Below, piece after piece: positions 3,200-56,383 of a stretch of 64,000 nucleotides of DNA. This DNA is from a virus, in the IMG/VR virus record IMGVR_UViG_3300020202_000068, positions 1 to 64,000 of that record; one strand, given 5' to 3'. The notes under the pieces were generated by a model, which did not search any database, was not told the DNA's origin, and was given only the letters and a program-made list of their open reading frames with translations. Positions within the stretch are counted from its first letter, which is position 1. The number at the start of each line of letters is the position of its first letter. A program made the translations under genes and the position numbers.

Positions 3200-4510
3200 A
3201 TGGTCACGGCAATCGTGGGCCAGGGTCCGCCCTTGGCCAAATCCCTGCACCCTGGCAGGCTGGTGAAGCTGCTCCAAGCCAGCAAGACCCAGGTGGGCTA
3301 CAACCACCGCCCGCCCGTCAATCGCGTCCTGCGGGTCCACAGTAAATACAGCTGGAAGGAGCAGCCCTGCGTTTACCTCCAGGATGAGCTAACCGGTACC
3401 ACCTACGGCACCACCGAGCTGGACAGCGTGTTCGCGGCGGTCAGTCGGCGCGAGAAGGCCGAATACCGGGACGAACTCACGAAGCTCTACATCTCCGGGA
3501 AACGCTCCCTGGGGGGTAATGGCTGTGGGGGACGCGGGACCGACCCGGAGGTGTTCGTGGTGAACGGGGAGGGCGAGATCATCCCCGCCTACCTGTTCCT
3601 CCCGTCCAAGGCCGCGCCGCTCTATATGAAGGGGGCCCTGGGGGACGTGAAGGCCTTCTACGACGGCTTCCAGGCTGAGTTCACGGTCGGCGTGGCTGGC
3701 TGCCACGAGAACCTCTGTCACGATGTCCGGTTGGGATTGAAGTCGATCTACGAGGCGGCTAAGAAGCTCGACCCCACAGCCAAGCTGACACATCAATGCG
3801 TCCTGGACCTGCCTGAGCACGTTTGGGCCACCACCCCCGCTGAGCAGCGAGTCTTGGGCTGCGATCCCTCCTCGAATGTCTATTTCGAGGGACCGAATCC
3901 CCGCCTGGGAACCGCCGAGGAGCTGCCTTTCCGCTTTGCGGGCTGCCACCTGCATTATGCGATCGGCAGCGATCAGTCCCTGAAGGCTAAGCAGGGGATC
4001 GTGAAGCTCCTGGATGCGATCTCGGGGGTCTGCTCAGTCAGCCTCCTGCGGGGCCTGGAAGACCCGCGTCGCCGGGCCTTCTATGGCCTGGCGGGGGAAT
4101 ACCGGCTGCCGCAGCACGGGCTGGAATGGCGGACGCTGAGTTCCGCGATTCTGATCCACCCGGTCGTTTGGCATTTGGTCTGCGATCTGTCCCGGAAGGT
4201 CGTGGCGATTGCCTTGAGCGATCAGGCCTTTATCTGGGACTGCTCCGCTGATGAGGCTCAGCAGGTCATTAACGACCTGAACGTCCCGCTGGCCGAAGAG
4301 ATCATCCACCGCAACGAGAAAGCCTTACACGCGATCTTGCTCGGCACGTATGGAGCCCAGGAGGTCATCGAGAAGTCCACCCGGCTGATCCTGGAAGGGG
4401 CGGAGAACTGCCTGCCATCGCTGGATGTGGTCGCCAACTGGCACCTCAACGAGGCCCAGTGGCCCCGCCAACCGCAAATGAGAAACACCACACTCAAGGC
4501 GAAGCCATGA
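3200..4510 (+). CDS. Phage amidoligase, COOH-NH2 ligase type 2 family
   Basis: 436 residues. Matches by eye the glutamine-synthetase-fold COOH-NH2 ligases of phages: GTDPEVFV near residue 113 (metal/ATP end), a QAEFTVG strand near 155, an R-GL helix near 178, LGCDPSSNVY near 216 and AGCHLHYAIG near 247, then LEWRTLSSAI. Members are predicted to join a carboxyl to an amino group using ATP, on small molecules or peptides. It is the first gene of a cassette with a second amidoligase (5775) and a class II glutamine amidotransferase (8816). Start chosen by GAGGAGTC 9 bases upstream of ATG. The stop overlaps the next start. Confidence 0.85.
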   Translation: MVTAIVGQGPPLAKSLHPGRLVKLLQASKTQVGYNHRPPVNRVLRVHSKYSWKEQPCVYLQDELTGTTYGTTELDSVFAAVSRREKAEYRDELTKLYISGKRSLGGNGCGGRGTDPEVFVVNGEGEIIPAYLFLPSKAAPLYMKGALGDVKAFYDGFQAEFTVGVAGCHENLCHDVRLGLKSIYEAAKKLDPTAKLTHQCVLDLPEHVWATTPAEQRVLGCDPSSNVYFEGPNPRLGTAEELPFRFAGCHLHYAIGSDQSLKAKQGIVKLLDAISGVCSVSLLRGLEDPRRRAFYGLAGEYRLPQHGLEWRTLSSAILIHPVVWHLVCDLSRKVVAIALSDQAFIWDCSADEAQQVINDLNVPLAEEIIHRNEKALHAILLGTYGAQEVIEKSTRLILEGAENCLPSLDVVANWHLNEAQWPRQPQMRNTTLKAKP

Positions 4511-5037
4511 CGGGTTACCTGCAAAATATCCTTCTTCAACCGCACCACCAAAGGAGCAATGCCGTGTCTGTTACCGCATCTATCAACCCCCTGCCGGTGT
4601 ACGTCACCGATGCAGACGTGAACCGGGTAGCACCCAAGAAAGAGGAGGATTGGGTCGTTAATTTTGGCGACCCGAACGACAGCGTTGAAGAGTTTCCGTT
4701 CTGCTGTGCCATCGGCGTCATCGGGCACGCGATCGCCACTGAAGGTGACTACGACCGAGAGATTGAGAGCCTCACGCCGCAGCACGGAGAAGCCTTCTTG
4801 AAAGCCATGAAGGAGGAGGTGGCTGGACGTTCTCGGGAAGGTCTAATCCTCTACACCGTCACCGACAACCAAGTGGTGGAGCGGGCAGGCCTGGAGGCGG
4901 TTGGCTTTCAAATCATGGCCGTCTTCAAGAACCCTAAGACCGGCAATCGGATCACGCTTTACGGTCTTTTGGTGAACCAGCCGCGTAGCCGGCCGGTCCA
5001 CCCTAAGGCCGCGAAGAAGAAGCTGAAGCGTAAATAG
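4507..5037 (+). CDS. Cassette protein, possibly acetyltransferase-like
   Basis: 176 residues from ATG 4507 (ATGA overlap with the amidoligase). An alternative start is GTG 4563, behind AAAGGAGC. The C-terminal half has NQVVERAGLEAVGF followed by FKNPKTGNRITLYGLLV, which resembles the last helix and strands of a GNAT-type domain (neighbour residues then GF). The acceptor and catalytic parts are not clear, so the assignment is weak. The C-terminus is very basic (AAKKKLKRK). It shares a transcript with the amidoligase and is followed by a strong terminator. Confidence 0.6.
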   Translation: MTGYLQNILLQPHHQRSNAVSVTASINPLPVYVTDADVNRVAPKKEEDWVVNFGDPNDSVEEFPFCCAIGVIGHAIATEGDYDREIESLTPQHGEAFLKAMKEEVAGRSREGLILYTVTDNQVVERAGLEAVGFQIMAVFKNPKTGNRITLYGLLVNQPRSRPVHPKAAKKKLKRK

Positions 5038-5084
5038 TCCAGCCCTAGCTTTCGACAAAATGTAAGCGCAGGCTGCTTCTCACG

Positions 5085-5121
5085 GGCTCCGCCGGCTAAT
5101 AAGCTGGCGGGGCCTTTTTTT
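5085..5121 (+). terminator. Rho-independent terminator
   Basis: Stem 5085-5097 with 5102-5114 (GGCTCCGCCGGCT against AGCTGGCGGGGCC), a 4-base loop and a run of seven T. Ends the amidoligase transcript. Confidence 0.9.
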
Positions 5122-5149
5122 GTTGAGTGGACGGACCAATGTTTGGTTC

Positions 5150-5156
5150 CTGTCAC
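5150..5156 (+). promoter_or_regulatory. CTGTCAC motif
   Basis: Recurring motif just after the terminator and 33 bases before the start at 5190; likely part of a promoter or operator for a single-gene transcript. Confidence 0.4.
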
Positions 5157-5189
5157 GAAGTCCCATGTTTTTCTTAGGAGGTAGGTTTC

Positions 5190-5612
5190 ATGGCTGTGAA
5201 AGCGACTATTGGTGGCGGTGGTCAGGTCGGCACGCTCTCGTTCAACGAGATCATCGGCTACACGCCGGGTCAGGGCCGGGGGGACGCGAAGAAGAACTGC
5301 TACCAGAATGTCAACAATGGCAACATTCTGGTCGTGTTCGGCGTCAACGCCCAGCTCGTCGAGTACGAGCGCCGGCCCAGCGGCAAGCGGACCAACCGCA
5401 CCGGACTGACGCGGGCCGGTATGTTCGTGATCGAGAAGAAGACGGGCAAGCTCCGTCCGGTGACGGCCGACCGCAGCCCTGATGGCAAGAAGGTTTGGGT
5501 GCCGTACTCGGGCTCGATCACCATCGGGGGTAACCCCCACGTCATCCAGCCAGGCCAGAACGCCCAGGCGGCTGGCAGCGACGAGTACGACGACGAAGAC
5601 GGCGAGGCCTAG
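5190..5612 (+). CDS. Unknown 140-aa protein, probably highly expressed
   Basis: Excellent ribosome binding site (AGGAGGTAGG) before ATG 5190. The gene stands alone between a strong terminator and a second hairpin. Gly/Asn-rich N-terminal half (GGGGQVGTLSFNEIIGY), basic middle, and an acidic tail SDEYDDEDGEA. No family recognised. Lying inside the amidoligase cassette, with an unstructured acidic C-terminus, it could be a substrate or carrier for the ligases, but this is speculation. An ssDNA-binding role would also fit an acidic tail. Confidence 0.75.
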   Translation: MAVKATIGGGGQVGTLSFNEIIGYTPGQGRGDAKKNCYQNVNNGNILVVFGVNAQLVEYERRPSGKRTNRTGLTRAGMFVIEKKTGKLRPVTADRSPDGKKVWVPYSGSITIGGNPHVIQPGQNAQAAGSDEYDDEDGEA

Positions 5613-5628
5613 GCAATCTGGGCTAACC

Positions 5629-5680
5629 CAAAAGCGACATGACTGTGTCGCTTTTGACGTAAGTCCTTATCCGACGTGAG
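5629..5680 (+). repeat. Dispersed hairpin repeat, copy A (terminator-like)
   Basis: AAAAGCGACA (5630-5639) pairs with TGTCGCTTTT (5646-5655); then GACGTAAGTCCTTAT and CCGACGTG. Two other copies are at 31033-31074 and 39333-39380. The hairpin with A and T arms could end transcription of 5190-5612, in either direction. Confidence 0.75.
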
Positions 5681-5738
5681 TCGCGGAGGTCCGTTCACCG
5701 GCCCTGGGCAGTAGCTTAGGGCCGAGACGCGGTTTTCC

Positions 5739-5745
5739 CTGTCAC
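5739..5745 (+). promoter_or_regulatory. CTGTCAC motif
   Basis: Reads CCCTGTCACAAAAC; 29 bases before the start at 5775. Confidence 0.4.
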
Positions 5746-5774
5746 AAAACCTAGAGGAGGAAGGAGGGGATGCT

Positions 5775-7970
5775 ATGCCCCAAAACAAACGCTTAGCGGG
5801 GGTTCTAGATACCGAACTCACCACGAAGCAAGTCGCCGATTGGCTCACCGAGCTGATCGAGAGATTCTCGAAAGCCGCCCCCAAGGGCTCCGGCGAGCGA
5901 ACCGCCAAGGACATCGTCAGCCCGCTCAAGAAGCGGGTGGAGGAGTACCTGGCCCATCGCAAGCAAGGCGACCCACATCGCACCTCAACCCACACCGACC
6001 TCTGTGAAGGAGTGCGATTCGCCCTCAACAGCTTCCGCAACATCATCAATGTAAAGTCGGTAGAGGGGCTCAACATCGAGCCCTATCAGGCCGTCGCGGA
6101 TCGGCGCTGGGAGGAAGTCGTCAATGCCCGGATCGAAGGCAAGCACTGGACGTTCCCGTGCTGCCACTGTGGCCGAGGCGGGACGGAGCTAATTGCAGAG
6201 AAGTATTTCTGCGTCCGCTGTCGGGATGTCTATACGGCCGTTTGCCGGGGGTGCGACGAGCGGTCGGATAAAGCCGACATGCGAGTCGTGACCAATGAAG
6301 ACGCGGCGGAGCTGTATTACTGCGAGGAGTGCGTCAGTGGGCTCGATACTCATGAATGCACGGCCTGTCACGTCCCTTACTTGGGGCGCGAGAACCACGG
6401 CCATCGGCACTCCGCCGAACTCAAGGCCGCTGGCATCTCCGCGTGCCGGAACTGCGCGCCTGGCTACCGGAAGCTGCACTGCGGGCACTGGTGGCCCAAC
6501 GGCGGACATCGGCAGGCGGTTGTCGTCGATACCGAGGACGACAATCGCGTCCGTGAGACCGTCATCGAGCAGGGGCAGCATGTCTGCGACAACTGCCTCG
6601 ACCGGCGACATCGGGACGATGCTTTGCCTGAGTTCTGGCGGCAGAAGGTCCCCAAGGTCAACGGCAGCCTCTTCACGGAGGTTGGCTCGCTACGGACGTT
6701 CGGGGTCGAGCTGGAGTTCTGCGAGGTCTATCAGATGCCTCGCATGAGCGACGACATTAAGAACTACTGGACCGCCAAGGAAGATGCCTCCCTGCCACGG
6801 GGCGGGGTGGAAATGGCTTCCACGATCCTCCATGGGGATGAAGGATTGCAGCGGATTCGCGAGCTATGCGAGTACGCTCATGCCCCGGAAGGCAACCCCA
6901 AGAAGAAGTGGGCCGTGGATGCCAGGAGTGGCTTTCATCTGCATGTGGGTCTGGCGACGGACAGCCAGGAGCAGGTGGCCGCGATTGCGATGGGGTATTT
7001 GCAGACGTACGAGCTGTGGCGGCTGTTTGTCGCTCCCAGCCGGACGAATAGCTGCAAGTATTGCCGCCGCAACCGGATCACCCCCGCTCAGCTCGTCGGC
7101 TATCAGCCTCGGGAGTACATCCAGAAGCTGACGGCTCTCGACGACCGGCGGGTGTGGTGCAATTGGCACTCCTATCCGGCTCGGCAGACTGTCGAGCTGC
7201 GGGTCCATCAGGGCACGAAGGTGTATGAGAAGATCGCGAATTGGGTCAAAGCCCATACGCGGTTCTGCGACTGGTGCGCCAGCCTGAAGAACCCCAAGAA
7301 GGTCTATGAGCGGCTCAAGGATTACGAGACGAAGCCGCGTGAGCTGTTTCTGATCGTGGCCCAGGAGGCCTGGAAGGATCGGGAGCTGGGTATGTGGTTC
7401 CGTAAGCGGGCAGAGGCGCTGCACGAGAAGGGCAATCGCCTCCTGTCGCATCGCAAGCTGCGGCAGAAAGGGATTGACCCGAAGGCAGTGCCGACGTTCA
7501 CCAACGGGACGCTGACCTTCAAGGGGAGAAGGCTGTTCGTGGTGGAGTACGAGCGGACAATCTACGTGATTGACCGCGAAAACATCCACGACTCGGGTGG
7601 CGTTAGATTCCTCCATCCAACCAAGGACGATTGGATCGCAAGCCCCAGTCGCCGATTTCTTACCCGAGAGGACGCCGAGAGGTGGTGCATTGAGCACGCT
7701 GATCAGAACCAAGTCCCAGTCGAGACGCTCGCGGACGAGATCGCTCGTCGCATAGCCCGGGCGAGCGAGAACCGGCGGGCACGTCCAGCGAATCGGGTTG
7801 TCATGCCGGAGTTCGCTATCAGCTCCGGGCCATGGACTCCTGATCCGCTGCCAGCGACTGTCGAGGTAACTGACGAGATCACGGCTGGCGATCGTCAGCT
7901 ATTAGATGATCTGGATGATGAGGACGAGCCAGAGGAAGAAGAGGAGTCGGTTGCGGACGACATCTTCTAA
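5775..7970 (+). CDS. Amidoligase (Amidoligase_2 family) with Cys-rich N-terminal region
   Basis: 731 residues. Helical N-terminus (about 1-120), then several CxxC pairs from residue 129 to about 280 (CCHC, CVRC, CEEC, CTAC, CDNC) suggesting zinc-binding modules. Next comes an amidoligase domain: FGVELEF near 309, a Trp/Asp-Ser-Leu segment (AKEDASLPRGGVEMAS) near 336, SGFHLHVGL near 384 and TVELRVHQGT near 472. These are the hallmark positions of the glutamine-synthetase-like amidoligases, which ligate carboxyl and amino groups with ATP. The C-terminus is acidic. Start supported by AGGAGGAAGGAGG. The zinc modules may recruit a protein or nucleic-acid substrate (inference). Confidence 0.85.
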   Translation: MPQNKRLAGVLDTELTTKQVADWLTELIERFSKAAPKGSGERTAKDIVSPLKKRVEEYLAHRKQGDPHRTSTHTDLCEGVRFALNSFRNIINVKSVEGLNIEPYQAVADRRWEEVVNARIEGKHWTFPCCHCGRGGTELIAEKYFCVRCRDVYTAVCRGCDERSDKADMRVVTNEDAAELYYCEECVSGLDTHECTACHVPYLGRENHGHRHSAELKAAGISACRNCAPGYRKLHCGHWWPNGGHRQAVVVDTEDDNRVRETVIEQGQHVCDNCLDRRHRDDALPEFWRQKVPKVNGSLFTEVGSLRTFGVELEFCEVYQMPRMSDDIKNYWTAKEDASLPRGGVEMASTILHGDEGLQRIRELCEYAHAPEGNPKKKWAVDARSGFHLHVGLATDSQEQVAAIAMGYLQTYELWRLFVAPSRTNSCKYCRRNRITPAQLVGYQPREYIQKLTALDDRRVWCNWHSYPARQTVELRVHQGTKVYEKIANWVKAHTRFCDWCASLKNPKKVYERLKDYETKPRELFLIVAQEAWKDRELGMWFRKRAEALHEKGNRLLSHRKLRQKGIDPKAVPTFTNGTLTFKGRRLFVVEYERTIYVIDRENIHDSGGVRFLHPTKDDWIASPSRRFLTREDAERWCIEHADQNQVPVETLADEIARRIARASENRRARPANRVVMPEFAISSGPWTPDPLPATVEVTDEITAGDRQLLDDLDDEDEPEEEEESVADDIF

Positions 7971-7981
7971 GCGTTAACTAA

Positions 7982-7988
7982 CTGTCAC
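7982..7988 (+). promoter_or_regulatory. CTGTCAC motif
   Basis: Reads AACTGTCACAAAC, 26 bases before the start at 8015. Confidence 0.4.
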
Positions 7989-8014
7989 AAACTCTTGATA
8001 AATAAGGACTTATC

Positions 8015-8245
8015 ATGGATCAATCAGATGGATTCAGGGGCCTACTGGACCGCGTGTCGGTCCATGGTCCTGAGATGTGGGAGAACGACACTGGTCCTCC
8101 TGGCTGGCACGCAGTCTCGCACGACGACCTAAGTATCGTCGCCTACTTCTTGTTTGAGGCTGACGCTTACCGCTATCGTCTGGACCTGATAAATCGGCTC
8201 CTGAACGAATTGCCTCCAGAGTTTCTGGGGGCCGGAAGTCAGTAG
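8015..8245 (+). CDS. Hypothetical phage protein (76 aa)
   Basis: ATG 8015 follows AATAAGGACTTATC (AAGGA spacing 7). Central hydrophobic core DLSIVAYFLFEADAYRYRLDLINRLL; looks like a small alpha/beta or helical domain. Function unknown. Its distal part is overlapped, antisense, by the reading-frame tail of the HNH gene at 8034-8762. Confidence 0.65.
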   Translation: MDQSDGFRGLLDRVSVHGPEMWENDTGPPGWHAVSHDDLSIVAYFLFEADAYRYRLDLINRLLNELPPEFLGAGSQ

Positions 8246-8762
8246 TGCCGTCGTTCTTTTTGGAGTTGCAGGAGTGACACAGGGGCTGCCTGTTCGAGAT
8301 GCTGTTGGTGCCGCCAAGCGACACGGGGATCACATGGTCAGCGACCAGTCGATCCTTGCTGCCGCAAGCCAGACACCGATAGCCATAAACCGACAGGAGC
8401 AGCTCCCAGTCCTCTTCTGTCCAGGTTCCTCCTGCGGCGCGGAGGCGATCAACATACTGCCTCTCGTAGGCGCGTATCTTGGCCCTGTTCTTCTTGCGGT
8501 ACTCGGCCATGTAGGCTCTGGCCTTGGCCTTACCATCCTCAGAGGTTCTGTTGGCAGACTTACGTGCCTTTACGTCTGGATTGGCGTGATGCTCAGCTTG
8601 CTTTGCTCGCACCTTGTCGCCATGGGTGGCTTTATATCGCGCCCACCGGGCGGACTGACAGGCTCGGCAGTGAGGCTGCAAGCCGTCTTTAGCTGAGTGA
8701 CATTTAGCGAAATCCTCGACGAGTTTTTCGTGTTTGCAGGAGCAGCATGTTTTAGTTTCCAT
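8034..8762 (-). CDS. HNH homing-type endonuclease
   Basis: 242 residues from ATG 8762, a lone minus-strand gene in a plus-strand region. N-terminal treble-clef pair (CCSCKHEKLVEDF then HCRAC), a basic spacer, then the HNH core: YGYRCLACGSKDRLVADHVIP, NRQPLCHSCNSKK and DFRPP. The domain should nick or cut DNA. Past about residue 175 the protein is Arg/Ser/Gln-rich and lies antisense to 8015-8245, so it is probably read-through lacking the native stop. Orientation and position suggest insertion of a free-standing homing endonuclease between 8245 and 8816. Weak ribosome binding site. Confidence 0.8.
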   Translation of the reverse strand: METKTCCSCKHEKLVEDFAKCHSAKDGLQPHCRACQSARWARYKATHGDKVRAKQAEHHANPDVKARKSANRTSEDGKAKARAYMAEYRKKNRAKIRAYERQYVDRLRAAGGTWTEEDWELLLSVYGYRCLACGSKDRLVADHVIPVSLGGTNSISNRQPLCHSCNSKKNDGTTDFRPPETLEAIRSGADLSGPDDSGKRQPQTRSRRRYLGRRARLRASQEDQCRSPTSQDHGPTRGPVGP

Positions 8763-8815
8763 GCAGCTACTGTATCATTTGCGAACTTACTGTCAAGAAT
8801 AAAGGAGACCACAAA

Positions 8816-10354
8816 TTGTGCGGATTATTTGGCGGACTTGGTGCCAACATTAATGTCCATGCGGTGCGTCACCTCGCGGCTCTCAATGAGAGTCGGGGGC
8901 GTGACTCCGCTGGCTTCTTTGACCAGCATGGAGACTGGCTTAAGAAGGGTTATACCTCGATCACGGAGTGGCTCAAGGACGAAGGGCTGCGGGACAAGCT
9001 CCAGCGGATGTGCCTCACGGGGGCCGTCTGCGGGCATACCCGGGGCTCGACTCGTGGGAACCACAAGACCGAAAACGCCCATCCCTTCGCCTACGGCGAG
9101 GAGGGCAAGCAGGTAGTGCTCTCACACAACGGGGTGATCGACGCCCCGGCGAAGTACGACGTGGATTCGATGTACATGGCCGACTTGCTCGCTCAGGGCA
9201 AGCCTGGCCAGTACCAGGAGGCCTTGGGGGGTGTCTCGGGGTGGTACGTGCTGACCTGGCACGACGAGCGGACGGGTTGCATCTACTTCCTTAATTGGAC
9301 GGGCACTCTATGCTTCGCCCCGCTGGGGGACACGATCTACTACTCGTCCGCCAAGCAGCATCTCCAGCAGGTCCTGGCCCACCCTAAGATTCACGAGACG
9401 GTCTCGGGGGAGGTTTGGATGTGGACCGGCAAGAAGATGAAGCCGCTCAAGCACTTCACCGGGAAGGTGCGGACCTATACCCAGAGCAATAATTATGGCC
9501 AGCAATGGGACGACACCCGACCCTCTGGATCGGTTCTCAAGCTCCGCTCGACCGGCAAGTGGGTCGCCAACCTGCGTGGCGCTTACTTCGCGGAATTGAC
9601 CGACCAGGAGAAGTGGGAGGAGATGTACGGGAACGACCCCAACCCTTACACCTCCAATGGTAAGTGGCCCGGGTTTCAAGTGATCGAGGCGCATATCAAG
9701 AACGCGACCATCATTGACTTCGACGGCAAGCCCGTCTCCAAAAAGAAGCTGCGAAGAGGGATTCGCAGCTGGGTCGGTAACGACGACACCGAGCTGGAGG
9801 AGTCGGAGAAGCAGGGAGTGGTGGTCGTGGATAGTCCCGGCGTGGCCGATACCAAGGTTGTTACCACTGTCCAGAATGCCACCCCCGAGCAGAATGAGGC
9901 CCTCGATAAGTTCTTCTCAGACAACCAGATCGGCAAGGAGACGTGCGTGGCCTGTGAGGGAACGGGGCTGGCCACGCAAGGGAGTGAGTTACGCTGCCGG
10001 CCCTGTAACGGGACGGGCAAAATGATCGCTCACGCCCTCGTGAAGGCCGATGTCGCCAAGCGGGCGGCGGAGGCCGAAGCAGGGGACAACGTCGCCAAGG
10101 CCCTGGCCCTGCAAGAGGAGATCAATCGCAAACAGCGTGATCTTCGCTACCGGGACCGCTCCGATGCCTCGGCGGCTGCCAGAGCGGCCTTAAACGCCCA
10201 ATGGCAGAAGCTGAGGGCTAAGGGCATGGATGACGAGACGATCGGCAAGGAGCTGTGGAGGGCCGGATTCTACGAAGACATCTACGACCTGGACGAGAAA
10301 GACCTCCTCCCACTGCGGGGCTGGATGGAAAACGACGCCTTCGCCATGGACTAG
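8816..10354 (+). CDS. Class II glutamine amidotransferase with DnaJ-like zinc motif
   Basis: 512 residues. The start is TTG 8816: it gives MCGLFGG with Cys2, the nucleophile that must become N-terminal, and AAAGGAG lies 8 bases upstream. GATase II signatures follow: RGRDSAGF, GHTRGSTRGN with NAHPF, LSHNGVIDA and DSMYMADLL. The domain hydrolyses glutamine and passes on ammonia; no synthetase domain such as Asn synthase or sugar isomerase is recognised after it. Near residues 376-402 there are two CxxCxGTG zinc repeats, as in DnaJ central domains. With the two amidoligases it suggests an amide- or peptide-forming pathway. Confidence 0.88.
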   Translation: MCGLFGGLGANINVHAVRHLAALNESRGRDSAGFFDQHGDWLKKGYTSITEWLKDEGLRDKLQRMCLTGAVCGHTRGSTRGNHKTENAHPFAYGEEGKQVVLSHNGVIDAPAKYDVDSMYMADLLAQGKPGQYQEALGGVSGWYVLTWHDERTGCIYFLNWTGTLCFAPLGDTIYYSSAKQHLQQVLAHPKIHETVSGEVWMWTGKKMKPLKHFTGKVRTYTQSNNYGQQWDDTRPSGSVLKLRSTGKWVANLRGAYFAELTDQEKWEEMYGNDPNPYTSNGKWPGFQVIEAHIKNATIIDFDGKPVSKKKLRRGIRSWVGNDDTELEESEKQGVVVVDSPGVADTKVVTTVQNATPEQNEALDKFFSDNQIGKETCVACEGTGLATQGSELRCRPCNGTGKMIAHALVKADVAKRAAEAEAGDNVAKALALQEEINRKQRDLRYRDRSDASAAARAALNAQWQKLRAKGMDDETIGKELWRAGFYEDIYDLDEKDLLPLRGWMENDAFAMD

Positions 10355-26925: not shown

Positions 26926-27402
26926 CTAGTTGTTGGCTGGGGTAACCCAAGACCGGCCGTTCCTGATGTGTTTAATAGCTGCCTGCGAAACACCAAAAGC
27001 GGTTGCCAGAATGCGCTCATGCACTCCGGCTGCGGATAGCGTTTTGATGTTTTCAACTTCCCATTTTAGCAGCCGCGACCTGTAGTGCCGCTCGCCGCAT
27101 GGGATTGTTCCGTGAGCGATCCGGTCACGATTGTTCTCGGTGACAGTGCCCCACACCACGTTATTGGCGTGATTGTTTCGGGGATTCCCGTCTTTATGGC
27201 GGCACACAGCCCCCGCAGGGCGAGGACCGTTAAAAGTCTCGCACACGAGTACATGAACGTGATACGTCTTGCCGTCTAGGGAGACGTTGAAATACCGCCC
27301 ATTCCACGATAGCTTCAAAGCCTTTAGAGAGCCACGCCTCTCACTGAGTATTAGCCCGTCTGTTGTCGCGTAATACCCAACACGATTGGCGATTGGCCTC
27401 AT
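26926..27402 (-). CDS. HNH homing endonuclease with DNA-binding C-terminus
   Basis: 158 residues from ATG 27402, which overlaps the upstream stop as ATGA behind AGAGGAA. The HNH core is YHVHVLVCETFNGPRPAGA, CRHKDGNPRNNHANNVVWGT, ENNRDR (HNH_3/NUMOD4-type). The C-terminal part LSAAGVHERILATAFGVSQAAIKHIRNGRSW is a helix-turn-helix. Flanked on both sides by related gene ends, so likely a mobile homing gene. Confidence 0.82.
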   Translation of the reverse strand: MRPIANRVGYYATTDGLILSERRGSLKALKLSWNGRYFNVSLDGKTYHVHVLVCETFNGPRPAGAVCRHKDGNPRNNHANNVVWGTVTENNRDRIAHGTIPCGERHYRSRLLKWEVENIKTLSAAGVHERILATAFGVSQAAIKHIRNGRSWVTPANN

Positions 27403-27785
27403 TTCCTCTTTGGAACGCAAGGCAGTAGCTCCTTCCTTTTCTCTTTTGGGAGAACCTCCCTCTCTGCCAGCTCTACATCCCATTGTGTCCAGGTCTCTCG
27501 GGCGGCTCGTGAGGTAATGTGGCGGGTTTGCTCTCCGTCCTGCCAGTGACAGGTCCAGTAGCCAGTCTGCCAGTCCTTTTCCGGGAGCTGCTCGTGCTTC
27601 TTCACCAGCCGCCAGGCCCGTACATTGTAGCGGCCATCACCACCCGACCAGTCGTAAAAAATAACCTGATCGAAGACAAGCCTCCCATGCTCGTCAAAGA
27701 AGTGATTGACCTCAATGAGATCGACCGTCTCTCTGGAGGTGCTGTCACGCGGGATGACCCCTAGGAGCAGCAATAAGATCGGCAT
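27399..27785 (-). CDS. Secreted or anchored protein (128 aa)
   Basis: AGGAGG 5 bases before ATG 27785. Short hydrophobic start MPILLLLLGVIP (signal peptide-like), then strands (VNHFFDEHGRLVFDQVIFYDW, YNVRAWRLV) and Trp-rich WQTGYWTCHWQDGEQ. A basic C-terminus is duplicated beyond the HNH gene. In a cluster of membrane proteins; function unknown. Confidence 0.65.
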   Translation of the reverse strand: MPILLLLLGVIPRDSTSRETVDLIEVNHFFDEHGRLVFDQVIFYDWSGGDGRYNVRAWRLVKKHEQLPEKDWQTGYWTCHWQDGEQTRHITSRAARETWTQWDVELAEREVLPKEKRKELLPCVPKRK

Positions 27786-28396: not shown

Positions 28397-28846
28397 CTAC
28401 CACCTACGGAAGATGCCCCTCACAGGCCGACTATTATTGTAATAGCTACCTTGAGAGTAGTAGTTGCTGTAGGTTGAGCGGGCTGGTTGGGGGCAGGTCG
28501 CGCAGACCGGAGCGGTGGCCGGGGCCGCGAACACTGTCGGCCTGGCTTTCAGCCCCTCGTTTTCCTTCCGCAGCTCCGCGATCTCCATATCGAGGAGCAC
28601 CAGCTTGGTTTGCAGCTCCAGCTCCGTGGCTGTGAACTGCTCAGGTGGAAGATGCTGGGGCGTACCGTCGTCATCGGCAGAGGCCCCAGCGCCGTCGTCG
28701 GAGGAGGAGGCCGACTCGGCAGATGATTCGTTGCCAAAGATCACCTTCTTGATGATCGCGGCGGGGATGCTGGGTTTCGGAGGCTCAGGCTTCTTAAACA
28801 AGAAGAGCACCACAACCACGATTCCCAGCGCTAAAAGACGGTTCAT
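28397..28846 (-). CDS. Membrane-anchored Pro/Ser-rich protein (149 aa)
   Basis: ATG 28846 with GGAGGGT 6 bases upstream (longer reading rejected). Membrane segment LLALGIVVVVLFLF, a Pro/Ser/acidic linker, a coiled coil (ATELELQTKLVLLDMEIAEL) and a Cys/Tyr-rich tail (CATCPQ, SNYYSQGSYYNN). Resembles i-spanin topology, but no homology is claimed. Overlaps the desaturase stop. Confidence 0.6.
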   Translation of the reverse strand: MNRLLALGIVVVVLFLFKKPEPPKPSIPAAIIKKVIFGNESSAESASSSDDGAGASADDDGTPQHLPPEQFTATELELQTKLVLLDMEIAELRKENEGLKARPTVFAAPATAPVCATCPQPARSTYSNYYSQGSYYNNSRPVRGIFRRW

Positions 28847-29307
28847 GCGACGACCCTCCGAGACAGCAGGCGAACGAGTGCATTCAGCCACCAATCGTTC
28901 CAGCCGCTAAGAATACAGTAATTGCGATCGAAGACCCCATCGTGATGGCCAGCGTGGTGCTGGGGGCTGATGATCAGGCGCGTGGCCTGTAAGAACGCCA
29001 CAAACCTCCCACCGCCCTCATGCGCCCAGTAATGCGGGAGCTGGGCGAAGCAGCCGATCACACCCGCGATCGTCAGAAACTCTGAGTGAACCCAGGCCCC
29101 GTAAACCAAGGCCGGAATAGCTGCCAGCATAGGCTGCCAGTCAAAGCCGTCCATGGAATTGGTCTTGTGATGGTTCTCGAACAGGTCGATCTGCTGCTGG
29201 ACGTTCCAGCCCTTGTCGGTGAGCAGGTGATAAACGCCCGTTAAGGCATCCACCAGAATGTAGGCCAGCACGGCTTTCACGAAGAGCATGAGGATCGCGA
29301 GCATCAT
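28843..29307 (-). CDS. Kua/TMEM189/CarF-type lipid desaturase
   Basis: 154 residues; ATG 29307 overlaps the preceding stop (ATGA). Hydrophobic helix at 1-20, others near 55-90. Histidine clusters match the plasmanylethanolamine desaturase/Kua domain in order: DALTGVYHLLTD, LFENHHKTNS, QLPHYWAHE, and LIISPQHHAGHHDGVFDRNYCILSGWNDWWLN. In the family these His residues hold a di-iron centre that desaturates ether lipids (plasmalogen formation in CarF/PEDS1) or related membrane lipids. All key His positions are present and the length is short but complete. Lies among membrane proteins of the late strand, so it probably acts in the host membrane. Substrate unknown. Confidence 0.82.
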   Translation of the reverse strand: MMLAILMLFVKAVLAYILVDALTGVYHLLTDKGWNVQQQIDLFENHHKTNSMDGFDWQPMLAAIPALVYGAWVHSEFLTIAGVIGCFAQLPHYWAHEGGGRFVAFLQATRLIISPQHHAGHHDGVFDRNYCILSGWNDWWLNALVRLLSRRVVA

Positions 29308-30203
29308 GGACCCCCTACTGGCTTCAGCCAATCGTCCGGGGTGGTCATCGTGGCAATCGCAAACGACCCGCTCCAGGCACTCCTCATCGTCCCCTTGGAG
29401 TCATAACGGATCACATCGTAGCTGTCCGGGTAGGGGGCGGAGCTGATCTCGTTGCCGCTAAACTGGAGCCCCGCCCAGGGCACGGCGTGGCCCGAGCGAC
29501 CGACGCTCACCAAGTAACCGTGCAGGAGCAGGCACACAGCCTGTTCGTACGAGGAGGGGAAGATCACCTCCAGGGGTTTGAACCACTTAGCCGTCTCTTC
29601 CCAGCCCGCCGGGAAGCTGGAGACACTGACCCAAGGGCCTTTGGACTGATTCTTTCCGCCCTGGCCAGTCGTGCCTTGCAGGCTGTGTTTGAAACTGTAT
29701 TCGAGGGGCTGAATCTTCTCCGGCAGGAAGCCTCGCCGACAAGCAATCTCCAGCACCTGCCGGATGCCTGCTCCGCCCCATTGCCGGGGGTTAGCCTCGG
29801 CGTACACCGAAAGCGGGCTGAGCCAGACCGAGCCCTTCACCGACTCGTCGTAGCGGAAGTCCTTCTTCGGGCCGTCGGGGAAGATGATGCCCCGGGCCCG
29901 GTTGCGGGCCGCTTCGGCATTCGCCCGGAGGGAGTGGCAGGTGCATTCGTGGGTGGGTGACTGGTTCGTGAAGCGGTCCAGCCGATTCATCCCCCAGGTC
30001 TTGTATTTGTCGTTGTCGCGGGCCTTATCCGCCCAGTCCTTGGGCTCAATCCAGAGGGCCGTCGGGAACTCTCGCGAGGATGAGCCGCAGACATCCATCA
30101 AGACATCGCGGGTGTCCCCGGCCTGAATCTCGACCGGGTAACCGTCGTGCTGCGGAAGGACTACGTCAACGAGTTTGGGGTCAACTGGGTCGAAGCTGCT
30201 CAT
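29304..30203 (-). CDS. Papain-like cysteine peptidase
   Basis: 299 residues; GGAGGT 6 bases before ATG 30203. The candidate catalytic Cys is in NQSPTHECTCHSLRANAE (Gln upstream, then Cys at the start of a helix), the His in RSGHAVPWAGLQF and an Asn/Asp in YDVIRYDSKG, the order of the C1/papain fold. It could process virion proteins or cut a cell-envelope peptide. Lies upstream of the desaturase and coupled to it. Confidence 0.6.
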   Translation of the reverse strand: MSSFDPVDPKLVDVVLPQHDGYPVEIQAGDTRDVLMDVCGSSSREFPTALWIEPKDWADKARDNDKYKTWGMNRLDRFTNQSPTHECTCHSLRANAEAARNRARGIIFPDGPKKDFRYDESVKGSVWLSPLSVYAEANPRQWGGAGIRQVLEIACRRGFLPEKIQPLEYSFKHSLQGTTGQGGKNQSKGPWVSVSSFPAGWEETAKWFKPLEVIFPSSYEQAVCLLLHGYLVSVGRSGHAVPWAGLQFSGNEISSAPYPDSYDVIRYDSKGTMRSAWSGSFAIATMTTPDDWLKPVGGP

Positions 30204-30580
30204 TTCAGTACCTCCATGACATCAGCTTCCGTCTGCGGGGCCTTCACGGTCTTCAAGACCTTCTCGCCAGCCGTGGCGACAGCCGCTGGCAGGCCAGACT
30301 CTCTAGCCGCTGCCACCGGGACCTTGTATTGGTCTGGAATCTCGCCAGAGCCATCCGTGGAATCCACTTCATGGAACGTGGCAACTAAACTTAAGTCTTT
30401 GTCGCGATTAAGTTTATCGAATGCTGCCTGGACTGGGTTCGGAATGCCGCCCGAGTCCTTCTCGTACACATAAGTCACAGCCGTGGCCTTCTGTGTGGAC
30501 GGGAAGATATTCGGTAGGTTGCCCTTGAACGCGAAGTACAAGAGCGCCAACGCCAGGACAGTGCGTAAGTCAAACTTCAC
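30200..30580 (-). CDS. Membrane-anchored thioredoxin-fold-like protein (126 aa)
   Basis: N-terminal anchor LRTVLALALLYFAF; then ATAVTYVYEKDSGGIPNPV, LSLVATFHEVD, VPVAAARESGLPAAVATAGEKVLKTV, in the strand/helix order of a thioredoxin fold. No CxxC, so not redox active. Function unknown; coupled by ATGA to the protease gene. Confidence 0.55.
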   Translation of the reverse strand: MKFDLRTVLALALLYFAFKGNLPNIFPSTQKATAVTYVYEKDSGGIPNPVQAAFDKLNRDKDLSLVATFHEVDSTDGSGEIPDQYKVPVAAARESGLPAAVATAGEKVLKTVKAPQTEADVMEVLK

Positions 30581-52577: not shown

Positions 52578-52877
52578 TTACTCCTCTGAGAATGGGATTG
52601 GTGGCATGTACGACTGAACGACCTGTTCGCCTCTCGCGGCCCCCATAGCCACGGCCAATCCCCTGTCGATCTCCATCTCGGGCTCATCAGCAAGCCGCAG
52701 ATTGTTCAGGAAATTGGCGTACTGCGAGGCACGGCGATGATGGTCTGGCCCATAAAAGCAAGTCACCATCGCGTTATCACGGAGGTACGGTGTATTGACC
52801 GGGTGGCACTCCACTCGCGTGCAGCCGCGATATGCCTGGTCAGGCATGACGTTGATTAGGTAATCGCAGTAGTTCAT
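52578..52877 (-). CDS. Hypothetical protein (99 aa)
   Basis: ATGA-coupled to the portal gene. Cys/His-containing N-terminal part (CDYLINVMPDQAYRGCTRVECHP), helical middle. Function unknown; likely head-associated. Confidence 0.6.
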   Translation of the reverse strand: MNYCDYLINVMPDQAYRGCTRVECHPVNTPYLRDNAMVTCFYGPDHHRRASQYANFLNNLRLADEPEMEIDRGLAVAMGAARGEQVVQSYMPPIPFSEE

Positions 52878-55800
52878 TTCTTACTCCCTGAGGGTTTCGG
52901 CTTGGCTGCGGCTACGGCTTTTGTAGCCTGCACTTTCGCCTGTGTCGTTTGTTTGGTGCTATCCACTTTGGCCTTCGTGGCCTGCTTGGATTGCTCGATC
53001 TTCTGCTGGCCCTGGGCCTTATCGAGCTGCATCTTCTGAGCGCCCTGGGCGAGCTGCTGGCCTCCCTGCGCCTTCTGGAGCTGAAGCTGCTGCCGTCCCT
53101 GAGCAATCTGAAGAGCCCCCTGCTCCTTCGTCACGGCCAGGTCCACCTGACCCTTCTCCTGCTGGAGCTGGAGGTCCTGCTGATGCTCCTGTTGTTTGAA
53201 CTGCATGTCAATCTGCTTTTCCTGAATCTTCAGTTCCAGCTCGACACGCTTGGCCTCTAGCTCAGCTTGCAGCTTCTGCATTTCCATCTGGAGCCGCTGG
53301 ACTTCAGCCTCCTGCTCCATCTGGAGTTCCTGCTGCTTGAACTGGGCTTCCATTTGAAGCTCGACCATCGGATTGGCCTGGGCCTCGCCCTGGAGCTTCA
53401 TGGCCTCGGCCTGGAGCTTCTGAACCTCTGCCTGCTTCATCTGCTGATCCAGCTGGGCGTTCGGATCATTCGGGTCCTTCTGCGGGAACATGAGTCCGTC
53501 CAGCTCCATGTCGTGCAGTTCCGCGAACTTCCGCATGTAGCCGTTGGCCGGCTCGTAATCGCCGGAGAGTTCCCCGTACTTCTGCACCATTGGCAGGAAG
53601 CGGGTCCCGAACTCAGAGAAGTTGTCGATGTCTCGATCCTTGTTTGGCCGGCGGATACTGGCCGCTGCGACCTCGTACCTCATCTGCCGCATGATCAGCT
53701 CGTGGTCGGCGTTCTCGATGTACTGGGCCCAGAGAGAGGCTCCCGTGCGGCCCATGAGCGGGGCCACGTCCTTGCTCTTCACGAACATCCAGGCGATCAA
53801 GGCCTCGACGCTGGCCACCCGGCTCTGCCACTCCACGACCTTCTTCTGCATGTGCTCGGGACGCACCCCGACCGCTTGCTTGCGGGCGTTGGTGGTCTCG
53901 GCCGTGCGGTCCTGGGTGCCGCCTTCGTTCTGGCCATACACGAACGGGGTCATACCCATCCGCTTATCGAACAAGCTGTTCAGTAGCTCCAATACCTCCC
54001 AGGGGTCCTTATTAATGTCCTTGCCCTCGACGAGCTGGATCATCTTCTTGACATCCTGATCACCGCCGATGGGAATCCCGAAGACGCTCATATCGTCGCC
54101 GTCTTCGAGCTGCTTCTTCAGCTCGTCGTGGTACTGGCTCATCACGGCCCACATCTGCCGGCTGGATTGCCAGGTGCGGTTCACGAGCCAGGAGACAATG
54201 GCGTTGATCGCCTTTAGCTCACCCAGAGCGGGAGCCAATGGAGGGAGTCCGTATGGACTGTCTGTGTCCTGGTAGAAGATGAGTCGCTCAACAGGCCATC
54301 TATCATCGGTCCAGAGAGGGATAGGCCACTCGAAATGTGATCTAACCTCTTCAGAACTAGCTCCGCTCCTAATTTTGTCGGATGGGCAGTTGAGTGGGTA
54401 CGGGCAATCAGGGCAGATCGCAAGGTAGGCGTAATCACCGACGGTTTCCTCCAGCTGATTCTTGAGCATGTCCGGCATCCCGGTCATCCGGCTGCCGACA
54501 CCGCATTTCGACCAGATTTCGTACCAGACCACCAGGTCGTTCGTCTTCCCGCTCTTCCGCTCTCCGGTGGCTTGGCCTTCCTGGCTCATGGCTTCGGCGT
54601 AATGCCAGCCTGACTCTAGGGAGGCCTTGCCTTTGAGAGCGCCTTTAGGGAGCTTGAACTTCCGCTCGACCTGCCAGTGGGGCTGGATGTGCTTGCGGGC
54701 CACCCACTTACACTGTTGGGAGGTCTTGAAGTCAGGGTCGTAGATCAGGTCTTCCGGGGGGCAATGGAAGCAGCCAGTGAGCTGGAGATCGGAGCCCGGC
54801 ATCGTATAGGGACCCGGGATCAGGCAGCCCGCCCCCTTGAGCATGGCGTCTAGGACCGCCAGTTCGTTATGGCCCGAGAGCCCGTCCCCCGGCATTTCCC
54901 GGGGCGTGTAGTTCAGCCACTGCTGCATCATGTGCCCGACGATTTTGTCGCTGGCACTTTCCTGGGCAGCTTGCTGCTGAATGAACTGATAGAGCTGCTG
55001 ATCGGGGAACAGCTCGGGTGGGATTTCCAGCAGCTTTTTGCTCGTAGCTGTGCGATGCGGTACGTCCCATAAGAGATTGGGGCCGAAAACCGCCACATAC
55101 TCGAAAGCCTTGTTGATATTGATCCGAAAGCGGGGAGCCTTCACTCCCCGCCAGAACTTCTTGGCGTACAGCGGGTCCCACATGGCAGCCGCTGACTTGC
55201 CGTAGAACATGACGCAATTGCCGCTAATTAGCGGCTTGCCGTTGCGGCGTGTGATCAGCGTACCGTTCGGGACGGTGGCGCAGTACACCATTCCGTCGTA
55301 CTGCTCCGTGTGGTACTTCAGCTTAATCTCGTCGCCGGTGTGTCGCTTTAGAGAGGCTCGCTTGCCTTCGCTCCAGGAGGTCACGAGGTAGAGCTTGCCG
55401 CTCATCCCGGTCCTGGTTTCGAGGCCTGGGTCGGTGATCGCGTATGGTGCTGGCTGTCTCTCGCTGATCGAGGCGCTGCGGCCGATCTTGAGCCACAACT
55501 CCTGGATGTCATCGGCAAGCTGTTTGCTGGCTGTTCCTGATATGGCATGGCCGTGGCGGACGTGGCCGTCACCGGCCAGATACCCACGCAGGAACGCGCG
55601 GATCACGTTCTGGGGGGAGTCTTTAACCCACTGAGGAACCCGCTTGTCGTAGCAGCTTGTGCCGAACTGGCGAAGGTATTCGCACAGCTCCTTGCTGGTG
55701 AATGTGTACGACTTCATCAGCTTGCTATACGGCGGAGCTGGGAACCCGACCCGCTTTGCCAGCTGCTCGTAATACCTGCGTCCAGCCGTCTTTTTCTGCG

Positions 55801-56383
55801 CAATGCCAACTCGATATGGAACGCGAGCTTTCTTCTCGCTCTTTTTCGAGCACCAGCCTTCGGCAATGTAAAAGCCAAGCCATTCGGCGAAGTCAGCCGG
55901 GTCGGTGTCGCCAACGAAATCAGGCAATCTCGGCTTAGTGCCATGCCAATTGGCTGAGGTCAGCTTTAGTTGCTCGCTACGGCGAAGGGAGCTGGCTTCC
56001 TTCAGGGCGGCCCGCCCGGAGTGTGGCGGGAAAAAGACCATTCGGTGGCCTGGGGTCACCATGGCGTCAAGAGACTTACCGGCAAAGCGGATCATCTCAC
56101 CGGCCCTGTGGTGACGGACCAGCCTGGTAGGAACCTGGAACTCGATTGTGTCGGTTTCCAGGTTCACGGTCCCAAGCGGCTCGTCGCCGGTTAGGTCACT
56201 GAAGAGCATCCAGCCGGTGCTGGTGAGCACCTCTGTTTGCTCGTCATGGCATTCATCCGCCACTTCCTTCCACCGCTTGCGGGCGGGGCAGGTCAGCGCA
56301 GACTCCAGCTTGGCTAACCAACCTGTAACAATAGGGCGCAGGAATTCATAATTCCTGTCCTCGAAGGCTGCCAGGTCTTGCAT
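52874..56383 (-). CDS. Portal protein, intein-containing precursor
   Basis: 1,169 residues before splicing. The N-extein is residues 1-44 (helical, FLRPIVTGWLAKLESALTCP). The intein is 45-389. The C-extein begins CVMFYGKSAAAMWDPLYAKK, giving a mature protein of about 824 residues. The mature part has the portal layout: WLNYTPREMPG, ELKAINAIVSWLVNRTWQ, KRMGMTPFVYGQNEGGTQDR (nucleic-acid passage region), then a very long Gln/Lys/Glu coiled coil and repeats (residues about 1000-1169, LQLQQEKGQVDLAVTKEQGA). Located beside the large terminase. The C-terminal coiled coil is unusually long and Gln-rich. Confidence 0.85.
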   Translation of the reverse strand: MQDLAAFEDRNYEFLRPIVTGWLAKLESALTCPARKRWKEVADECHDEQTEVLTSTGWMLFSDLTGDEPLGTVNLETDTIEFQVPTRLVRHHRAGEMIRFAGKSLDAMVTPGHRMVFFPPHSGRAALKEASSLRRSEQLKLTSANWHGTKPRLPDFVGDTDPADFAEWLGFYIAEGWCSKKSEKKARVPYRVGIAQKKTAGRRYYEQLAKRVGFPAPPYSKLMKSYTFTSKELCEYLRQFGTSCYDKRVPQWVKDSPQNVIRAFLRGYLAGDGHVRHGHAISGTASKQLADDIQELWLKIGRSASISERQPAPYAITDPGLETRTGMSGKLYLVTSWSEGKRASLKRHTGDEIKLKYHTEQYDGMVYCATVPNGTLITRRNGKPLISGNCVMFYGKSAAAMWDPLYAKKFWRGVKAPRFRININKAFEYVAVFGPNLLWDVPHRTATSKKLLEIPPELFPDQQLYQFIQQQAAQESASDKIVGHMMQQWLNYTPREMPGDGLSGHNELAVLDAMLKGAGCLIPGPYTMPGSDLQLTGCFHCPPEDLIYDPDFKTSQQCKWVARKHIQPHWQVERKFKLPKGALKGKASLESGWHYAEAMSQEGQATGERKSGKTNDLVVWYEIWSKCGVGSRMTGMPDMLKNQLEETVGDYAYLAICPDCPYPLNCPSDKIRSGASSEEVRSHFEWPIPLWTDDRWPVERLIFYQDTDSPYGLPPLAPALGELKAINAIVSWLVNRTWQSSRQMWAVMSQYHDELKKQLEDGDDMSVFGIPIGGDQDVKKMIQLVEGKDINKDPWEVLELLNSLFDKRMGMTPFVYGQNEGGTQDRTAETTNARKQAVGVRPEHMQKKVVEWQSRVASVEALIAWMFVKSKDVAPLMGRTGASLWAQYIENADHELIMRQMRYEVAAASIRRPNKDRDIDNFSEFGTRFLPMVQKYGELSGDYEPANGYMRKFAELHDMELDGLMFPQKDPNDPNAQLDQQMKQAEVQKLQAEAMKLQGEAQANPMVELQMEAQFKQQELQMEQEAEVQRLQMEMQKLQAELEAKRVELELKIQEKQIDMQFKQQEHQQDLQLQQEKGQVDLAVTKEQGALQIAQGRQQLQLQKAQGGQQLAQGAQKMQLDKAQGQQKIEQSKQATKAKVDSTKQTTQAKVQATKAVAAAKPKPSGSKK
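55217..56251 (-). mobile_element. Mini-to-full intein with LAGLIDADG endonuclease
   Basis: 345 residues. Block A starts CHDEQTEVLTSTGW after extein E44; block B has the T-x-x-H of MVTPGHRMVF. Two LAGLIDADG-like motifs: AEWLGFYIAEGWC (near 167) and FLRGYLAGDGHV (near 264, LAGDG). Blocks F/G: DGMVYCATVPNGTLITRRNG then LISGN, with Cys as first C-extein residue. The residue before the terminal Asn is Gly instead of the common His. Insertion is near the N-terminus of the portal. Confidence 0.92.

Follow-up and report, generated by a model that had tools for sequence, protein, structure and literature searches.

A gene for a putative minimal lipid desaturase lies on the minus strand of the window, the 64,000-nucleotide stretch of DNA analysed here, which was taken from a 77,276-base IMG/VR contig (Table 1). 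The sequence-only reading of this DNA had the boundaries of the open reading frame exactly right, and the histidine motifs it quoted are all present in the product, hereafter P0001, in the order it gave. The gene is preceded by AGTAGGGGGTCC and joined by ATGA overlaps to both its upstream and its downstream neighbour; its start and its stop are both coupled to adjoining genes, and its GC3 resembles theirs. Such overlaps chain four genes in all, from the 126-residue protein upstream to the 149-residue protein downstream. The further statement that the gene lies beside membrane proteins holds, by hydropathy, for the small flanking proteins.

Table 1. Genes and key residues at the desaturase locus, in window coordinates
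Feature	Position	Strand	Remarks
Small single-membrane-segment protein, 116 aa	28020..28370	-	Hydropathy maximum 1.38
Downstream neighbour, 149 aa, N-terminal membrane segment	28397..28846	-	ATGA overlap with the desaturase gene
Lipid desaturase gene (P0001, PF10520)	28843..29307	-	154 aa; ATG start, TGA stop
H118, H121, H122 (HAGHH) = mouse PEDS1 H215, H218, H219	28942..28956	-	H121 and H122 invariant; H118 in 62/63 phage proteins
H92, H96 (HYWAH) = mouse H187, H191	29020..29034	-	Residue alignment
Asp56 at the PEDS1-specific His position (mouse H131, CarF H113)	29140..29142	-	HH+9 residue
F43, H46-H47 (FENHH) = mouse F118, H121, H122	29167..29181	-	His invariant
H27...D31 (HLLTD) = mouse H96, D100	29215..29229	-	No variation among 63 phage and 30 planctomycete proteins
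Gene upstream of the desaturase; 299-aa product with a papain-like motif (Q81...C87...H239)	29304..30203	-	ATGA overlap with the desaturase gene
Partner gene conserved beside the papain-like gene; 126-aa product with a single hydrophobic segment	30200..30580	-	Identity 34-56%; directly precedes the papain-like gene in most contigs
Small membrane protein, 132 aa	30591..30989	-	Hydropathy maximum 1.87

The phage contig and the gene cluster

Two proteins of the contig match phage families, phrog_9953 (major head protein, E 5.7e-25) and phrog_2 (terminase, E 1.6e-4), and it is therefore a phage and not host contamination. Comparison of these two proteins with named phages returned no similar record and no lead to a host. 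A lead came instead from a contig in a Planctomycetaceae genome bin, which carries the papain-like gene at 67% identity and shares 70-78% DNA identity, over up to 8 kb, with many of the IMG/VR contigs. Because this contig may be a prophage or a binned phage, we name Planctomycetota as the host only tentatively, as a lead. PF10520 carriers make up 34 of 392 sampled Planctomycetota genomes (about 9%).

Several other genes of the window may be recorded here. Positions 52874-56383 (minus strand) encode a protein of 1169 residues that combines a LAGLIDADG endonuclease domain with partial matches to families of phage enzymes that are unrelated to one another and in which inteins are frequent, and this is probably an intein in a phage protein. 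Three genes at 3200-10354 (plus strand) match a phiEco32-like COOH-NH2 ligase (E 1.7e-5, just below the cut-off), Amidoligase_2 (E 5.1e-7) and a class-II glutamine amidotransferase (E 1e-4, below the cut-off), a possible amidoligase module. An HNH_3 endonuclease gene, possibly mobile, lies downstream of the desaturase cluster at 26926-27483 (minus strand), and an NT5C-type 5' nucleotidase gene (PF06941; 59115-59666, minus strand) adjoins the terminase gene.

Within the cluster, Q81, C87 and H239 of the papain-like protein are invariant in its relatives and stand in papain-like order; these relatives are 54-75% identical in 33 IMG/VR contigs and 27% identical in L004, another phage contig. The structural model of the protein is poor (pLDDT 54.6) and a fold search with it gave nothing significant, so "papain-like" is to be taken as a label for the motif only. 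Its 126-residue partner stands directly before it in nearly all of the 33 contigs, and the two genes (29304-30580, minus strand) form a unit that is conserved in about 30 contigs and has no Pfam or PHROG family.

In the contig with the closest papain-like protein, L081 (75% identity), the two-gene unit and a gene downstream of it (27399-27785 of the window) are collinear with the P0001 contig, but no desaturase lies between the papain-like gene and the downstream gene at this locus. By this comparison of gene order, the desaturase is an accessory gene of the lineage, gained in the P0001 phage or lost in L081. A fixed cassette of papain-like and desaturase genes was considered and rejected, as only one of the 33 other contigs with a close papain-like gene, L082, has a PF10520 gene nearby, and that gene belongs to a different clade (the N clade, described below). 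In L082, which is of the same lineage, the PF10520 gene sits beside thioredoxin-like and HAD proteins, and in L004 an HAD protein adjoins the desaturase. The repeated closeness at these loci is suggestive, with the reservation that there are three loci and one was used to find the others. An unsystematic look at the surroundings of P0001 recognised no gene for an electron donor or for ether lipids.

Family, catalytic residues and predicted fold

A Pfam profile search matched residues 18-143 of P0001 to PF10520 (Lipid_desat) with an E-value of 1.8e-16 and 61.1 bits, well clear of the 26.4-bit cut-off; the profile search that the sequence-only reading had put forward as a check thus bears out its assignment to the Kua/TMEM189/CarF/FAD4 family. 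A profile made from Planctomycetota homologues only scored 69.6 bits on P0001 (E 2.5e-20), as compared to 8.1 bits for the best of 2000 shuffles of the protein. No PHROG family matched P0001. The NCBIfam CarF equivalog NF045946 gave 35.5 bits against a cut-off of 500, which is a strict one, as planctomycete proteins also fall short of it (74-251 bits), those bearing the histidine equivalent to mouse H131 among them.

Mutagenesis of mouse PEDS1 found H96, H121, H122, H187, H191, H215, H218, H219 and D100 to be essential and F118 to be nearly so, its mutation leaving 6% of activity (PMC8960569). In our alignment P0001 retains the equivalents of all ten (H27, H46, H47, H92, H96, H118, H121, H122, D31 and F43), and on these residues the name "desaturase" is well supported. 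The enzymes of animals, myxobacteria and Leptospira have a ninth histidine (mouse H131, CarF H113) that the homologues of plants and Alphaproteobacteria lack, and those homologues did not complement carF (PMC9131029); this histidine is common to all complementing CarF/PEDS1 enzymes and required for full function (PMC9131029, PMC8960569). Its replacement by alanine abolished the light response in CarF and human TMEM189 and left 7% of activity in the mouse enzyme (PMC8960569). P0001 carries Asp56 at this position. With eight histidines, the Asp and the Phe, and no histidine at the H131 position, P0001 has the residue pattern of FAD4, a likeness of residue pattern only.

The protein is also short. 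On the 269-position CarF model, the alignment of most other phage homologues begins only at about position 56-67, and P0001 has 26 residues ahead of its first catalytic histidine; about 55-60 N-terminal residues of CarF, together with the first membrane helix, are missing from the phage proteins of the family, P0001 included. Instead of four helices and a full CarF N-terminus, we found two hydrophobic regions and, in the model, three long hydrophobic helices. The AlphaFold2 model itself is confident (pLDDT 88.2, pTM 0.82; 39 sequences). It begins with a long helix and has a short hairpin of helices between the histidine clusters, an arrangement that fits the two hydrophobic regions, and helix order puts most of the histidine clusters at helix ends, outside those regions. 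Its best match among viral structures was the Harvfovirus protein A0A3G5A308, "Lipid desaturase domain-containing protein" (probability 1.00, TM 0.69, E 3.8e-4), which differs in having 220 residues and in coming from a giant virus of eukaryotes. In the PDB, a fold search with the model gave no significant match, and sequence searches gave no significant relative and no solved structure for the PF10520 family, so the predicted di-iron site has no template behind it.

We thus regard P0001 as a predicted minimal lipid desaturase of the CarF/FAD4 side, a reduced variant of a known enzyme family encoded in a phage. The sequence-only reading had gone further and called it CarF-type, that is, a maker of plasmalogens, a claim at odds with Asp56, with the NF045946 score and with the missing first helix. 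Because the position of the ninth histidine holds Asp (in the L004 protein as well), the name "plasmalogen enzyme" is not supported, and this functional label was too specific.

Homologues in other phages and in Planctomycetota

The same reading knew of no described phage homologue. This stands for the literature searched, where no paper linked a bacteriophage with PF10520 and, of the papers mentioning both "phage" and "plasmanylethanolamine desaturase", none named a phage enzyme in its title or abstract, but it does not stand for sequence records: PF10520 homologues are present in 79 other phage or viral records, comprising 77 IMG/VR contigs and two INPHARED phages. Both INPHARED homologues match the family strongly. 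One is gene UIS25202 ("hypothetical protein") of Erythrobacter phage vB_EliS-L02, whose paper does not mention a desaturase; the other, P0003, is unannotated and comes from a 595-kb uncultured phage (LR756511.1, our L003, positions 7992-8450). P0003 keeps every residue of the PEDS1 set, the ninth histidine among them, and on these residues it is a stronger candidate than P0001 for a plasmalogen-making enzyme in phages.

Of the IMG/VR contigs, 75 were found by a search with an alignment of the vB_EliS-L02 protein (P0002) and the L005 protein, and L004 and L082 complete the 77. Single-protein scans of IMG/VR with P0001 and with P0003 returned no match, their patterns being too specific; a scan of genome contigs with P0001, the L004 protein and P0003 returned no relative, a scan of IMG/VR for PEDS1-type phage copies found none, and plasmid records held no homologue of P0003. 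Genes near the homologues have matches to virion families, among them tail completion, portal, terminase and tail sheath, so the homologues are phage genes. The family therefore has a wider presence in phages, so far undescribed.

In a tree of 71 rows, which holds no M. xanthus, animal or plant sequence, the proteins fall into two deep clades (support 100/99). The "F" clade, named for Phe43, contains P0001, the L004 protein, P0003 and 21 chromosomal CarF-like proteins of Planctomycetota, 17 of which have the ninth histidine; the "N" clade, with Asn at this position, contains all other phage representatives and nine planctomycete proteins. P0001 accordingly groups with CarF-like proteins, on the CarF side of the family. 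The CarF-like F type is rare in phages, 60 of the 63 distinct phage proteins being of the Asn type. P0001 and the L004 protein, 42-44% identical, group together (100/99) on a long branch of 1.23 changes per site, and because of its length the function of P0001 may have shifted. A single clade of all phage proteins was rejected (p 0.007, or 0.031 without P0003), and the family therefore probably entered phages, as judged from this tree, on at least two occasions from different sources.

Over the 63 distinct phage and 30 planctomycete proteins, the Asp and all of the eight histidines but one never vary; the one is H118, which fails in a single phage protein. Phe at position 43 is confined to P0001, the L004 protein, P0003 and the 21 planctomycete proteins of its clade, and the residue nine positions after the HH pair is Asp in P0001 and L004 and His in P0003 and 17 planctomycete proteins. 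UIS25202 of vB_EliS-L02 and most of the 77 IMG/VR contigs encode proteins that resemble P0001 in their similar length, eight histidines, PF10520 match and location in phage structural regions, but that differ from it in having Asn for Phe43 and in belonging to the separate deep clade. These N-type proteins (in IMG/VR, L005, L007-L080 and L082) thus have Asn for a near-essential Phe, and their genes lie among head, neck and tail genes. Several N-type contigs have isolate-type record numbers and lengths of 31-38 kb and are perhaps proviruses.

Candidate chemistry and its alternatives

Our preferred reading, held with moderate confidence, is that P0001 is a minimal, three-helix, membrane-bound di-iron lipid desaturase of PF10520 that is made late and remodels the host membrane, with FAD4-like acyl chemistry the likelier. 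The eight histidines, on the cytosolic side, would hold two irons, and P0001 would draw on oxygen and on electron carriers of the host to remove two hydrogens from a host phospholipid chain close to its glycerol end. This chain would more likely be an acyl chain, as in plant FAD4, than an ether chain, as in PEDS1/CarF, since P0001 combines the FAD4 residues with an Asp at the site where PEDS1 requires a His. Against the FAD4-like reading, the tree puts P0001 with mostly H131-bearing CarF-like proteins and not with a tested FAD4. P0001 would be made late, from a translationally coupled message that it shares with the papain-like protein and a number of small membrane proteins, and would alter the membrane of the host, presumably to the benefit of the phage, before lysis or during assembly. 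The two roles suggested in the sequence-only reading, membrane remodelling ahead of lysis and protection from light or oxidative stress, are both speculative.

Both cellular enzymes offer partial likenesses. Plant FAD4, the trans-delta-3 phosphatidylglycerol desaturase, shares with P0001 the family, the main residues conserved between PEDS1 and FAD4 and the lack of a histidine at the H131 position, where plants usually have Arg and P0001 has Asp. FAD4 works with the peroxiredoxin PRXQ (PMC12456178), whereas no such partner was seen for P0001. CarF of Myxococcus xanthus and animal PEDS1 (TMEM189, Kua) share the Pfam family, the eight histidines and the equivalents of Asp100 and Phe118, and P0001 falls on the same side of the deep split as the CarF-like planctomycete proteins; however, P0001 lacks H131/H113 and 55-60 N-terminal residues, has 154 residues as compared to 281, and is encoded by a phage.

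Alternatively, P0001 could have genuine PEDS1/CarF activity as a plasmanylethanolamine desaturase and form vinyl-ether lipids in a host that contains ether lipids, such as a planctomycete. The planctomycete host lead, the CarF-side placement with Planctomycetota homologues (17 with the full PEDS1 residue set) and the retention of H131 in the 595-kb phage copy would all suit such an enzyme, but we consider it improbable, given the Asp at the H131 position in P0001 and L004, where a change of His to Ala is harmful in CarF, TMEM189 and the mouse enzyme (PMC8960569). The missing N-terminal helix points the same way, as does the NCBIfam CarF score, though H131-bearing planctomycete proteins fail that cut-off too.

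Less probable still, P0001 might belong to the wider di-iron superfamily but catalyse a different reaction, such as lipid hydroxylation. Desaturases and hydroxylases of the superfamily share the same kind of centre, and P0001 has a weak secondary match to FA_hydroxylase (PF04116; 21.3 bits, E 3.8e-4, below the cut-off), but its 61 bits for PF10520 stand against 21 for PF04116, and the nearest named viral fold is that of a lipid desaturase. We give the least credence to a non-catalytic P0001, whether a desaturase that has decayed or been repurposed and persists as one of the small membrane proteins of the late region, or a mere passenger of no function. Its shortness relative to cellular homologues, its long branch, its position among small membrane proteins and its absence from the locus of the closest relative could all be read in this way; however, relaxed selection would be expected to lose some of the ten key residues, which are intact in both P0001 and the L004 protein at 42-44% identity, and the neighbour-like GC3 and the coupled start and stop likewise speak against this reading.

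Beyond the preferred reading of a late FAD4-like desaturase, a more far-reaching scenario is possible if rather doubtful: that phages acquired the family at least twice, and that P0001 and the L004 protein are a stripped-down, Asp-for-His form that makes a lipid double bond unknown from CarF or FAD4 and serves late reshaping of the host membrane. Other phage desaturases are reportedly known from cyanophages (Roitman et al., 2018), and these we take to be linked to the stearoyl-CoA-type desaturases rather than to PF10520. The fatty acid desaturases of Arctic phages (vFAD) have likewise been linked to the stearoyl-CoA type and not to PF10520 (PMC7300359). Like P0001, for which this is predicted, the cyanophage and Arctic enzymes are membrane di-iron desaturases carried by phages, with a supposed role in changing the lipids of the host.

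If P0001 is active, its type, at 150-154 residues, would be the smallest natural core that we encountered in the PEDS1/FAD4 family, and phages would alter lipids with an enzyme class so far undescribed in them. Whether the ninth histidine governs the choice between acyl and ether substrates could be tested directly on the pair of P0001, with Asp, and P0003, with His, and the many minimal versions in the phage clades make up a large natural alignment that could serve structural studies of the PF10520 family.
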